From assembly GCA_020746835.1 (NCBI GenBank), contig JAGPNK010000006.1, positions 2,088,388 through 2,152,387 on the forward strand: DNA of 64,000 nucleotides, given 5' to 3'. This DNA is from Stachybotrys elegans. Its lineage: Eukaryota; Ascomycota; Sordariomycetes; Hypocreales; Stachybotryaceae. Made by a program: the position numbers and the translations under genes. The notes beneath the pieces were generated by a model. That model was not told the DNA's origin, searched no databases, and saw only the letters and a list, made by a program, of their open reading frames with translations. Positions 59-5,531 of this stretch are shown piece by piece. Every line of letters begins with the position of its first letter. Positions within the stretch are counted from its first letter, which is position 1.

Positions 59-2623
59 ATGGCGGCTTCATCACCTGAAAACAACCGAAAATCTTGCCAA
101 TCCATTGAGACTCCTCGCTTGTCTCGATGGTTTACACGGATCAGGAGTGTTCCTGTTAGCCCCGCAGATTCCGGCTACGGCTCGCTTGGTGATGCTTCTC
201 CAGATACCTGTCCTCGTCGCACACGTCGGCATCCGAGATTTCTCGACGGCCCGGGCTCATCCGGCAGCTTACATTCCGAGTATGAAGATGCCGAACCAGA
301 GGGGTTCTTGGGTCATACCTCACAGCCAAGCCACTCCGTATCGAACGAATCTTTCCGGGTCGAGGAGAACGAGGCGGAAGTCATATGTCCCAGCAAGCCC
401 TCTAAGTTGAAGCCGCTCTCGTGCCCAAGTTCCCCTCGTTTTACGAGTTCGCTTGCTTGCGATAGATTTATCCCAGTGCGAGATGGTCTCTCGTCAAGCT
501 CAGAAAGATACCAGAGCACCAAGCACCCAGAGGTTCTCTCGCCTACAGAAAGACTTCTTCGCTATGTCCCCGGCTCTGCCGATCCTTTCATCATTCGGAG
601 TCCGAGGGCCGAATCAGTCTCTCCAACAGTCGGCGTGGTGCGACGAGGCCGTCTGCGGCTACCAAATGGTGGTTTAGTGAAGCTTCTGTATACGGACAGG
701 CACTAATCGTGGATACAGATGTTTCAATGCCGTCTCCAGAATCAGTCGTCGGAGAAGACAGGCAAGCCATCTACAATCGATGGGTTGCTGGAATGCAAGG
801 CCCTGGGACTTTTATCATCGACGATGGTCATGATCATCGACTACACGGAGGGGCAAACGGGAGGGTTTTCACTACGTCCTACCCGATCAGCAAACCCAGC
901 GTACAAGACGAGTCCGAGAGCTACCAGGACCGCCTAGCTTTGGCATTGAGAATCAACCGCGTCTGCAGAGTCTTGACCTTCGACCGGAAGCATAACGGCT
1001 CGCTATCGACTACCGAGTATGCGAGTCGCCATCCAAATCAGAGCTCTGCGCTGAGGTGGAATGGGTATACGTGGGAAAACACGCGGTGCTCTGTCCGTAA
1101 GTTTCTCTGAAGATTGCCATTTTCCTTGCTGATATATACCCTAACAACCCTCAGAGACGACCAGATCATCAAGCAGACGCTTGTTGCCCGCATCACCATT
1201 CAAGTATGATTCTTTTCTCATTTTCCCCACCCCCTTATTCTGACAGTCTGCCAGAGTCCTAGATGCCCCTGATCTACGCGACGACTTCTATTGCTCCATC
1301 CTTGCCTACTGCGCGACGTGCAAGACCCTTGCCGTTGGTCTGGGAAATCTCGTCTACACCTGGTCTGAGGGAATAGGGGCTCGTATGCTCCACGGCATAT
1401 TCATGGACCGAGTTTAGTTGACGTCAATTTCGTTCTCGTCTGTATATGGAGGAAAGAGCATCTTGGCAATGGGTCGCTCCAATGGCTCTCTGATCTTGAA
1501 GTCACTCTATGAACCGCGTCCACGATTCGAAATTCAACAGCCCTTCCCAGTAGCATGCGTGAGTTAGAGATCGACGACATGTTCGAGGCCGTCAAGGAAC
1601 CCTTTGGCCCTGGGCGTCGCCGTTGACATGGAGGATCTAGTGGTAGGGGACGACACGGGTATTATATATTACTATATGGTTGAATGGCCTTCGAACTGGG
1701 AGGTTACGAGGGATACCTGGTCGGGGTCTATGACCCTTGTGGCCAAGCTCTCACTTCACAGCCAACAGGTGTGTGGGCTCTCCTGGTCAGCCGACGGTCA
1801 GTTCTTCGCCTCCGGGGGAAACGACAATCTCTGTTGCTTCTACAGCGTGGATGAGGTGCTCGGTGAAAGACGGGAGGCGGTCTATGATGACAGGTTAGGC
1901 ACTCGTCCACCAGAAGGCCATGGATCTGAGCCTGAAGCACTCGCCCTTGGAATGAGTTTGTCTAGGTCTAATCGCCAGTCCATCGCCAGAAGCACCAATC
2001 CCTGGGGAAGCGGCGGTGCTCGACGGCGCGCAGCTACACGAAGCTCGCCAAATGGCTTCAGGAGGCTTGGTCTAAGCAGCGCAAAGCATCGCTGGATTCA
2101 TGGCGCTGCGGTCAAAGCCATCGCGTTTTGCCCCTGGCGCGATGAGCTTGTCGCTACCGGAGGAGGCTCCACTGACAAGTGTATTCATTTCTTCCATACG
2201 GTATCTGGCTCTGCTCTGGCTACCATTGCCGTCTCTGCTCAGGTAACTTCGCTCATCTAGTCGACGACGAGACGGGAGATTGCAGCGACGTTTGGCTATG
2301 CGCAGCCCGATCACCCCTATCGAATCGCAATCTTCAGCTGGCCAGACTGCCAGCAGGTCGCCGCGATACCATGGGAAGGGGACCTGCGAGCGCTGTACGC
2401 GATCCCATATCCTAGAGGGCCGCTCGGTGAGATGGGAGTCACGAGAAGCCGCACGGCCCAGGAGGGATGCATCGTGGTTGCGTCGAGCGATAGGACCGTC
2501 AAATTTCACGAGGTATGGTCTGACAGCACCAAGGCTACTGTCGAGGGGGCAGGAATGCTTGGTGGCAGTGGTATTCTTGAGGGGTTGGCTGGCATCGACA
2601 AGGAGGGCGATATCATCCGATGA
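59..2623 (+). CDS. AMA1: Ama1-type APC/C activator (Cdc20/Fizzy family) with three in-frame UAG codons
   Basis: WD40 co-activator that would bring substrates to the anaphase-promoting complex in meiosis. Proposed exons are 59-1096, 1155-1203 and 1255-2623 (introns 1097-1154 and 1204-1254), about 817 codons. The N-terminal part carries a C-box, DRFIPVR (about residues 135-141). The exon junctions rebuild the Fizzy-family stretch FKVLDAPDLRDDFYCSILAY. WD-like segments follow, such as VGDDTG, LSWSADGQFFASGG and IAATFGYAQP, and the protein ends in Ile-Arg, the tail APC/C activators use to dock on TPR subunits. Three in-frame TAGs (1415, 1565, 2258) all sit where relatives have Trp. One frame change around 580-610 (frame of 59 to frame of 598) has no evident intron. 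Divergence from Cdc20 and Cdh1, and the GYAQP...SWP...AAIPW stretch, favour Ama1. It could be a recent pseudogene, but intact functional ends argue for recoding. Confidence 0.72.
1415..1417 (+). other. In-frame UAG at a Trp position, site 1
   Basis: The frame reads MDRV-stop-LTSISFSSVYGG. Family members have Trp before the (L/V)TS segment. TGG to TAG is a single G-to-A difference and UAG is the favoured context of fungal A-to-I editing, which would restore UGG. About codon 416. Confidence 0.7.
1565..1567 (+). other. In-frame UAG at a Trp position, site 2
   Basis: The frame reads FPVACVS-stop-RSTTCSRPS. Cdc20/Cdh1/Ama1 proteins have the conserved VSW at this blade. The same frame continues into LGVAVDMEDLVVGDDTG without further damage. 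About codon 466. Confidence 0.7.
2258..2260 (+). other. In-frame UAG at a Trp position, site 3
   Basis: The frame reads AQVTSLI-stop-STTRREIAATFGYAQ. The family motif here is LxWS. The reading frame stays open from this codon to the natural stop at 2621-2623. About codon 697. Confidence 0.72.
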
Positions 2624-2964: not shown

Positions 2965-3824
2965 CTATTTTAGGATGGCGATGAGGAGTACAAGTATGAT
3001 TATGAGGATGATGATTATCGTCATTGATTTGTTCTCACTGGCACCTCTAGCAACTTTGCCGAGCATCTTGCTGGCTCGGTCGAGACGAGACTGGTGGCGG
3101 TCGACATAGCCGTCTACTTCGTCAAGCATAGCAACATGGTCGTCGAGCTCGTCGCCAATCTGCATGCTAAGCTCTCTCTGGCGTCCAATCGATTCGCCCA
3201 ATCGGTCGAGCTGCTCATCTTGCTGCTGGAGGATCTGGTTGTGGTACTGGTGGAGCTGCTGGTTGCTCATGCCAGCGGCTTCGTCGGCATAGCCGGCCGT
3301 ATCGTTGGCGGGATCATCCCGGTAGGGACCGAACAGCTCCTGCGATGGGGAGGGCGGCGTATCGCTGAATCGGACCGTCTTGGATTTGCGCGCCGACGTT
3401 GCGCTGGTGGTGGAGGCGTGGGCGAAGTCTTCGGTGAGCTCTTCCGAGTTGGGGTGGGTGAGCGTGTCCCTTGTCGAAGGGTTGGAGAAGCCGTGGAACT
3501 GGGCCGTCAGGTCGTCGAACTGCTTCTGCAGAGAGGGGAGGGACTCTGAGATGGCGGAGGCGGCGCTGTGTGTCCTCTATGGTTAGATTTATACTCGAGC
3601 CGCTTGAGGGGGTCTCCTTCTCACCTCTCATCACCAGCCTGTTCCAAACGGTCCCTCTCCTGGCGCAGGTTTACCAGGCCATCGCGGAATTGGTCGAGCG
3701 AGCGAGAGATGTGCCCATCCTGCGTGTCGCTGTCGAGGTTGAGGCTCTGGGCGCGCTGCCGCTCGAGCAAGGACAGCTTGACATGATCGGCGAGCAGGAA
3801 GAGCTGGTTTGGGTTGTTGGACAT
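2965..3824 (-). CDS. SYN8: Syn8-type t-SNARE, tail-anchored
   Basis: Endosomal/Golgi Q-SNARE for membrane fusion. Exon 1 is 3625-3824 and exon 2 is 2965-3565; the 59-nt intron (3566-3624) has GTGAG and ACACAG borders and splits a Ser codon. The 266-residue product is close to yeast Syn8 (255). An N-terminal helical region (RDGLVNLRQERDRLEQ) is followed by a Ser/Thr/Pro-rich linker, a SNARE coiled coil at about residues 186-245, and a C-terminal hydrophobic anchor at 248-265 with only one residue after it. The core GDELDDHVAMLDEVD aligns without gaps to syntaxin-8/Tlg1 members, but the ionic zero-layer position normally Gln is His210. Tlg1 is the main alternative; length and overall pattern favour Syn8. 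Confidence 0.85.
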
Positions 3825-4631
3825 TGCGAGTGGCGCCGCGCGGGTATGAGACGGGGAGAGAAGGCGTGTAGGATGACCGAACTCTTCTGATGAAACTTAT
3901 CGGATGGGTTCTTGTTGATCAGTTGGACGACGTTCGACCCGTTGGGAGGTTCCGTGCCTGCTTAGCCGGGAGGATGATGCGACGCCTTTCGTTCCAGAGC
4001 CTGTTATGGCAGTACACGCGATAGCGTACCGCCTTCGTCACTTGGGCAAGTACTCTACTAATTTGCACACTGTGTATCTACCCTATACCATTGGGTTCGT
4101 CAATAACTCGCCTACAATGGCACAGACACAAACATCCGCTGCTGACATTCCGGTTATGCAACCATCTGTGTTTCATACTTAACGTGCTTGGCCACTTGCT
4201 GTGGTTGCCTATATCGTGCATGACGTGCAACGCCTGTCGTTAATCGTGAAGTGATGACTGGATGGTTGGGCCACACCTTGACATACAGACACCGGCGCTA
4301 ACACCGGCGATCCCAGAACCAAGCTTATTCCAAGGCTTGCCATACCAACTACACCGTACGAAGAGACTGGCAATCATGATTGAAAGTGTGCATATTGATT
4401 CCGTTAGATACGTGATAAAAGCAAGATAGATAAACGATTGGATCCCGTGCACGTAATGACCCTAGCAAAAACGAACATTTTGATACGGCATGCCCTAGAT
4501 AGGAAACTCCCATGTCTCCCACCAGCCGATATCCCCAAACCCAGCTCCGGCATAGTTGAACCCCAGTGACCAAAGAATAACCCATGGGACAAGACCCTTT
4601 TAAAAATACAAGCGAAATCTGAATGCCAGGC
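3825..4631. other. Intergenic: SNARE promoter side and 3' end of next gene
   Basis: Lies upstream of the minus-strand SNARE gene and downstream of the next minus-strand gene. Stops are frequent in all frames. No tRNA-like arms, repeat or small multi-exon gene was recognised. Confidence 0.6.
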
Positions 4632-5531
4632 CTAGCAGAGGCTCATCTCAGAATCAACTGTCGTGGCGACTGGCGCGGTCTCCAGTGGACGGGGAGACTC
4701 AGCAGCAAAGAGAGTGTCGGCGCCCTCAAAGGCAGGTGGGCTCTGTTGCAGATTGGCAAGGGTGCTCTGGACAGTGTGACTGATGAGTCGACCCTGGCGA
4801 AGGTTTTCGGCAAAGAGGAAGAAGCCTTCATTGGCCTCAACCAGATATGACAGCAGGCCCTTGCTCTCAAGGCAAATGCGGACGTTGCTGAGGGGATAGT
4901 GGTTCTCAATGTAACGAGCCCAGCCGCGAGAAGCAGCTTGAATGTGCTCGTCGGCGCTAATCCGGCGCCATCCAATACCGAGGTGCAGAGTGAAGTCGTC
5001 AATGATGGGCCCATTGGCGTTTTCCACAGGGGAAGAGCCAGTAGAAAGGGTTGCAAAAGCGGCGGGCTGAACTGTGGTGTTGGCGTGATCATCTGCAAAG
5101 CCCATGCGCTGAGACTTGAAGGACCGGGGCCTGACATGGGCGTCCAATTGCTGTTGACGCGACTTCTTCTCTTGGGCGTTCTTGTCCTCGAGCCAGGTGC
5201 CAGATTGGCTGCCGGCATCGGCGACGTACTTGTTTTCGGGCTTGATGAGAACCATGCCCTCGCCATAAGTCCACTCCTGTTCGGTGGATACAGGCTGGAG
5301 GACGGGAGCGTCAGATTCGAGGTTCACTGACGCTTCGTCGCGAGAGCGCTTGCGACCAGCGGCGCGCGGAAGAGCGGCTGCCATGATCGGCATCGGGGGA
5401 GACGCGCCGAAAGCCCTGGGTGAGGCGCGGCGGCATGGGAATCCACCCATGGGGAGAGGAGTTTGGAGGAAGGGCTGGGGAGACATGGTGAGCACCGGTG
5501 AGTTGGTGTACTGACGACCGAAGGAAGCCAT
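4632..5531 (-). CDS. Fungal protein of unknown function, 299 aa, single exon
   Basis: Uninterrupted 299-codon frame. The N-terminal third is low-complexity and Pro/Met/Ala-rich, with a basic cluster GRKRSRDE near residue 60 that could be a nuclear localisation signal. The C-terminal half is more ordered: GIGWRRISADEHIQAASRGW, then ARYIENHYPLSNVRICLESK, then a segment ending in EGFFLFAENLRQGRL. This looks like one conserved helical domain of a fungal family I know only as hypothetical. No catalytic motif, signal peptide or membrane segment is visible. The + strand upstream is purine-rich (CT-rich in the direction of transcription), typical of a fungal promoter or leader. The first Met is used; Met16 in the same frame is the alternative. 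Confidence 0.78.
   Translation of the reverse strand: MASFGRQYTNSPVLTMSPQPFLQTPLPMGGFPCRRASPRAFGASPPMPIMAAALPRAAGRKRSRDEASVNLESDAPVLQPVSTEQEWTYGEGMVLIKPENKYVADAGSQSGTWLEDKNAQEKKSRQQQLDAHVRPRSFKSQRMGFADDHANTTVQPAAFATLSTGSSPVENANGPIIDDFTLHLGIGWRRISADEHIQAASRGWARYIENHYPLSNVRICLESKGLLSYLVEANEGFFLFAENLRQGRLISHTVQSTLANLQQSPPAFEGADTLFAAESPRPLETAPVATTVDSEMSLC

Follow-up and report, generated by a model that had tools for sequence, protein, structure and literature searches.

The closest described counterpart of the gene considered here is FgAMA1, the AMA1 orthologue of Fusarium graminearum, reportedly the subject of a dedicated study (Hao et al. 2019, Mol Microbiol 111:1245). The orthologue (FGRRES_10728) is listed among 69 genes with intra-coding UAG to UGG editing (PMC4817773, Liu et al. 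2016), and several later papers state that the full-length protein needs editing or that editing matters for ascospores (PMC9499528, PMC11156358, PMC12582100, PMC11050156, PMC9600606). Since UAG editing of this orthologue has been published, the kind of gene that we describe here from Stachybotrys elegans is already known, and the initial annotation's mention of such editing for the Fusarium AMA1 orthologue is borne out (PMC4817773). The two genes are orthologous and share the presence of in-frame UAG. However, while UAG to UGG editing in perithecia, required for ascospore formation, is a feature of FgAMA1 itself, the three UAGs of the S. elegans gene are seen in DNA, and we infer their editing.

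Other edited genes offer further comparisons. PUK1, which the initial annotation had also invoked, does contain tandem UAGs that require editing in F. graminearum (PMC4817773), and its edited stops turn over between species (PMC5381528). As described from F. graminearum, F. verticillioides and Neurospora crassa, PUK1 resembles the S. elegans gene in carrying several UAGs, but differs in encoding a protein kinase. AMD1, FgRID and FgBUD14 are sexual-stage genes dependent on UAG to UGG editing, and stage-dependent splicing across a stop is reported for FgBUD14 (PMC11156358); these are genes other than AMA1, and the RID-like domain frames of the S. elegans genome are free of stops. False annotated introns over edited UAGs were described by Liu et al. 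(PMC4817773). In the literature searched we found no cross-species study of where AMA1 stops lie.

The window, a stretch of 64,000 nucleotides from the genome of S. elegans, a member of the Stachybotryaceae (Hypocreales, Sordariomycetes), contains the single-copy AMA1 orthologue (a meiotic APC/C activator) of this fungus, whose coding span, 59..2623, comprises four exons (Table 1). Removal of three GT-AG introns gives a spliced coding sequence of 2406 bases, in which 801 codons, including 15 TGG and 3 TAG but zero other stops and zero frameshifts, are followed by a TGA stop. The initial annotation had proposed a frame running from 1256 to 2623, broken solely by three TAGs, with the remaining Trp codons all TGG. 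The spliced model agrees on the TGG codons and on the stops, the three TAGs being the only ones ahead of the terminal TGA, but not on the beginning, as the last exon opens at 1255 and the coding sequence at 59. The C-box and the terminal Ile-Arg, likewise given as intact, are confirmed by the translation; the DRFIP motif corresponds to the C-box, which, like the terminal Ile-Arg, is needed to bind the APC/C.

Table 1 Features of the AMA1 gene, in positions of the window
Feature	Position	Strand	Details
Exon 1	59..668	+	Start codon 59-61; donor 669 or, with the frame equally kept, 672; spliced model
DRFIP motif, taken to be the C-box	461..475	+	Residues 135-139; intact in translation
Exon 2	719..1096	+	Spliced model
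Exon 3	1155..1203	+	Spliced model
Exon 4, WD40 propeller	1255..2623	+	Stop TGA 2621-2623; reading frame, Pfam, structural relatives
TAG site 1	1415..1417	+	Codon 400; candidate edited A 1416; predicted stem
TAG site 2	1565..1567	+	Codon 450; candidate edited A 1566; predicted hairpin loop
TAG site 3	2258..2260	+	Codon 681; candidate edited A 2259; predicted interior loop
Terminal Ile-Arg codons	2615..2620	+	Intact in translation

The encoded protein has a propeller of Cdc20/Fizzy type, with Slp1, Cdc20 and Cdh1 as the nearest solved structures. In Pfam, PF00400 matches above its own cut-off, and PF24807 matches with an E of 2.4e-55, yet at 188.4 bits lies below the curated cut-off of 200. Among the best 120 of 2802 relatives the top ones come from Stachybotrys chartarum (66%) and Paramyrothecium foliicola (64%), and the latter protein, as well as several further close relatives, is annotated as AMA1. 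The 43.4 Mb genome yields one full-length match, which rules out a second intact copy as a substitute; two other loci match partially at 39-50% identity, and these are mitotic activators, distinct from AMA1 and without a stop in the matched parts.

All three TAG codons fall where relatives carry Trp, although the strength of this statement differs between sites. Within the best 120 of 2802 relatives, Trp is aligned in 120/120 at both site 2 and site 3, exactly as the initial annotation had it, whereas at site 1 it is merely common (W 107, H 7, Y 3, gap 3). In the alignment of orthologues proposed as a check, made here at the protein level, the S. chartarum and Paramyrothecium proteins have Trp at sites 1, 2 and 3, and Trp-linked skips occur elsewhere in Sordariomycetes (see below). 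Had the stops arisen as independent nonsense mutations, the chance of 3/3 being TGG to TAG would be 0.0002, 0.001, 0.003 or 0.007, under transition weights of 1, 2, 4 and 10, respectively. Under RIP-type change alone (CpA to TpA), 18/38 targets are TGG to TAG, a proportion that cubed comes to ~0.11. We reject RIP as the origin of the stops, given that the indices of the gene (0.62; 1.22) show no RIP signature by customary thresholds. Across the window, a single stop splits 14 frames that have 90 or more codons to either side of it (TGA 10, TAG 3, TAA 1), and one of the three split by TAG is AMA1 at site 3.

The protein remains conserved past the stops. At columns that are at least 98% conserved, the window protein departs in 2/116 (rank 16 of 130 near-full proteins), or in 2/114 once the two columns that are themselves stop positions, counted as Trp by read-through, are excluded; by segment, before, between and after the stops, the departures are 0/14, 0/8, 2/57 and 0/35. 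Identity to S. chartarum over the same segments is 0.68, 0.73, 0.75 and 0.83, against 0.83, 0.71, 0.81 and 0.80 for Paramyrothecium, such that the S. elegans protein is the less similar of the two ahead of the first stop (0.68 vs 0.83). In a tree of 32 rows, which leaves the fork nearest the window protein unresolved, its end branch measures 0.29 changes per column, versus 0.19 each for S. chartarum and Paramyrothecium and a median of 0.1. Judged by these alignments, the S. elegans AMA1 is somewhat fast-evolving yet constrained beyond every stop, and is no old pseudogene. The marks of a pseudogene (mixed stop types, frameshifts and loss of conserved residues) are absent, in line with the earlier argument that random decay should bring other kinds of loss, where 3/3 TGG to TAG, no frameshift and retention of conserved residues are seen.

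The genome also appears equipped for editing. Of three DUF726 loci, L007 carries Met-Val ahead of RAEKAG and has Ser at +31, Asp at +89 and His at +129, a spacing identical to that of M500, S531, D589 and H629 in F. graminearum Ame1; the remaining two have QN and LD at the Met-Val position (aligned by eye). Replacement of KN by MV is described as a critical step for editing in Sordariomycetes (PMC11087585). A Tad2-like gene (L016; HAE, PCVMC) and a Tad3-like gene (L020; HCV replacing HAE) are recognised by motif only. As far as such residues and motifs can tell, an Ame1 with the editing-tied residues and Tad2- and Tad3-like genes are encoded in this genome. In Fusarium, relatives of the RID-like and SPO22 genes either depend on editing of this sort or undergo it; in S. 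elegans the SPO22 domain frames, like the RID-like ones, contain zero stops, which weighs against the editing reading. A search for a PUK1 orthologue through kinase domains, with 123 of 240 candidates scored, found TAG in 13/136 listed matches; of these 13 loci 10 were inspected, none having TAG clearly at a Trp position, and their TAGs resemble intron or domain-edge stops, a further point against that reading. Separately, the locus L039 (G000:C6:387500-397400) includes, at about 4610-4864 on the minus strand, an HMG box of apparent MAT1-2-1 type, RPPNAYILYRKERH, with an intron within the box and an APN2-like frame upstream; both names rest on motifs. A search for a MAT alpha box gave no match, a result too weak to demonstrate that the box is absent.

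Predicted RNA structure, computed from 30 bases on either side of each candidate A, supports one site of the three. A 1566 is placed in a hairpin loop with a probability of 1.0 and has preferred bases at 5/6 positions, while A 1416 is placed in a stem (hairpin probability 0.002) and A 2259 in an interior loop (hairpin probability 0.25), both with a depleted base at +3. The U at -1 and the purine at +1 are uninformative, because the UAG codon itself supplies them. Hairpin loops are thus predicted for 1/3 sites, as compared with 2/12 other UAGs of the transcript, 44/120 random A and 3/15 TGG codons. In F. graminearum, about 62% of edited sites are reported in predicted hairpin loops, and sequence is said to weigh more than structure (PMC9600606).

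We consider it likely that the S. elegans AMA1 is kept functional through sexual-stage A-to-I editing of its three UAGs. Under this model, Tad2-Tad3-Ame1 would deaminate the middle A of each UAG in the fruiting body, the edited codon would be read by the ribosome as UGG (Trp), and the complete Ama1 protein, including the entire propeller, would be made as spores form. Without editing, translation would halt at codon 400, leaving a piece of at most 399 residues that includes the C-box but little of the propeller beyond its beginning, which might be harmless or, equally speculatively, inhibitory. Because all sites must be edited in one molecule, full-length output should approximate the product of three efficiencies. 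The stops probably arose singly, by TGG to TAG, and would have been tolerated since editing corrects them. The initial annotation had combined A-to-I recoding with a gate made tight by three sites in one mRNA. The recoding is the best-supported part, in view of the published editing of the orthologue, the genes for the machinery and the conservation past the stops. A selected gate is not supported: UAG seems to occupy different Trp codons in other lineages, a hairpin loop is predicted at only 1/3 sites, and the facts are accounted for equally well by neutral accumulation under editing.

Among the relatives, annotated AMA1 proteins often lack short segments that contain Trp or end at it. We aligned 188 proteins (the window protein, the best 120 of 2802 and 67 new ones from a second search, itself the best 120 of 304) and scored early ends and in-frame losses spanning 6 or more conserved columns. 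The survey covered 366 columns, a set that excludes the variable stretches 201-275 and 389-402 (window-protein numbering), and disregarded shorter skips. The survey concerns annotated proteins rather than genomic DNA, and several of the species are close kin. With species assigned to classes from their names, and related species not being independent, a Trp-linked skip or early end is found in 46/103 named Sordariomycete AMA1 proteins vs 2/35 of those from Leotiomycetes (Fisher p about 1e-5). The first search alone gives 8/44 vs 2/30; the 59 Sordariomycetes added by the second search, which was seeded with a skipped F. verticillioides protein, account for 38 of the 46. Of the 46 proteins, 43 have a Trp-containing skip, which in 20 of these proteins finishes precisely at the Trp, and 6 of 7 early ends stop directly ahead of Trp. 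When only distinct skips are counted (n=32), 9 end at Trp vs 1.2 expected, a figure reached in 0 of 20000 random placements, and Trp is contained in 29 vs 21.4 expected (p 0.0003).

As a control, an internal skip occurs in 0/83 named Cdc20 proteins, on which basis we reject the idea that the Trp-linked skips stem from annotation noise. In 21/37 unnamed Cdc20 proteins there are losses or early ends by the last intron (556-593), two of them just before Trp; introns alone can therefore yield such a pattern in unspliced calls. Metagenome AMA1 proteins have a Trp-linked skip in 0/49, though as single-exon calls they could hardly show one.

The skips that end at Trp look like invented introns, opened by a GTN codon and closed by the AG of TAG: 7/9 distinct ones open at a conserved Val, and the closing AG points to TAG because a TGG or TGA codon cannot supply it. 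They differ in position among lineages. In F. verticillioides, F. oxysporum, F. sambucinum, F. sarcochroum and others the skip closes at Trp 54. Nine proteins from Xylaria, Hypoxylon and related fungi have a skip that closes at Trp 148, with Trp 144 lost too. Trp 373 is the end point in two Fusarium, one Xylaria and one Nemania, and Trp 421 in T. barbatum; three Trichoderma skip over Trp 373. Five of the six early ends finish one residue ahead of Trp 373 and one ahead of Trp 294. In the annotated F. graminearum protein (P0126) the Trp of site 1 is skipped, which suggests that one FgAMA1 stop is site 1. What is new here is the occurrence of apparent Trp-linked skips across annotated Sordariomycete AMA1 proteins, at Trp positions that vary between lineages, and this variation suggests recurrent Trp-to-UAG turnover. 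On balance we favour, with some reserve, an editing-dependent AMA1 stop that is recurrent in Sordariomycetes but has a moving address (in window-protein numbering, Trp 36, 54, 104, 144 or 148, 294, 373 and 421, with 335 here), S. elegans being an instance with three stops together; either a sexual-stage gate is maintained as its sites move, or Trp codons of the gene drift between UGG and UAG, being near-equivalent under editing.

Two further cases among the annotated proteins deserve mention. In Lachnellula (Leotiomycetes; P0091, P0105) six residues from Val to Trp 373 (368-373) are absent, as if a UAG had been skipped; according to two studies, editing has so far not been found in the Leotiomycetes examined (PMC11087585, PMC11156358). 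In Fusarium langsethiae (P0129), AMA1 is fused to a PF00704 domain in a protein of 1140 residues, probably an annotation artefact around an interrupted gene.

Several alternative explanations for the three stops may be considered. If sex had been lost or become rare, AMA1 could be a recent pseudogene decaying by nonsense mutations, as the number of stops, the fairly long end branch (0.29 vs 0.19) and the sister proteins with Trp at all sites, which imply that the stops are recent, would allow. We regard this as unlikely in light of the uniform TGG to TAG changes (3/3; 0.0002-0.007 by chance), the intact frame without a RIP signature, the conserved residues retained past each stop, the apparent presence of further sexual-stage genes, and the recurrence of similar Trp-linked gaps in relatives. 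Alternatively, the stops could be spliced out within introns, perhaps in a stage-specific manner, as reported for FgBUD14 across a stop (PMC11156358), and a strong donor-like GTGAGT (1559-1564) does lie directly ahead of site 2. Yet the coding sequence around sites 2 and 3 is conserved in 120/120 relatives (the best 120 of 2802), and an intron opening at 1559 and closing at the acceptor at 1640 or 1646 would, by hand count, remove 82 or 88 bases and so break the frame, making splicing quite improbable.

A full-length product from UAG would likewise be permitted by stop-codon readthrough or by a UAG-decoding tRNA that inserts an amino acid. No such case is known in the group, which counts against this route, and readthrough at three sites would multiply the loss; with editing of the orthologue documented (PMC4817773), it has very little to recommend it. 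Error in sequencing or assembly is conceivable in that a single assembly was seen, but would demand that the same G to A error had happened three times, always at the middle base of a conserved Trp codon, and in a gene for which a stop of this kind is already documented in an orthologue; we think it extremely unlikely. Editing of the three UAGs is the reading that we prefer.

If confirmed, AMA1 would provide a compact test of whether restorative editing represents adaptive gating or constructive neutral evolution, given that a single gene offers 13 Trp positions (within the propeller columns compared), a wide range of lineages and apparently independent UAG gains. It would also serve as a warning that automated gene prediction conceals genes of this kind by false introns and premature ends. 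Confirmation would also extend sexual-stage stop editing to the Stachybotryaceae and, together with the MAT1-2-type locus and the editing genes, would argue that S. elegans keeps a sexual cycle.

Two minor observations concern the surroundings of the gene and its domain. Its convergent neighbour (window 2965-3840, minus strand) appears by eye to be SNARE-like, with a C-terminal membrane anchor. Elsewhere in the genome, runs of strong and regularly spaced WD40 matches are found at G000:C15:353100-354095, C32:123070-124065, C47:15488-16483 and C5:1419332-1420579, three of the four with near-equal scores and spacing.
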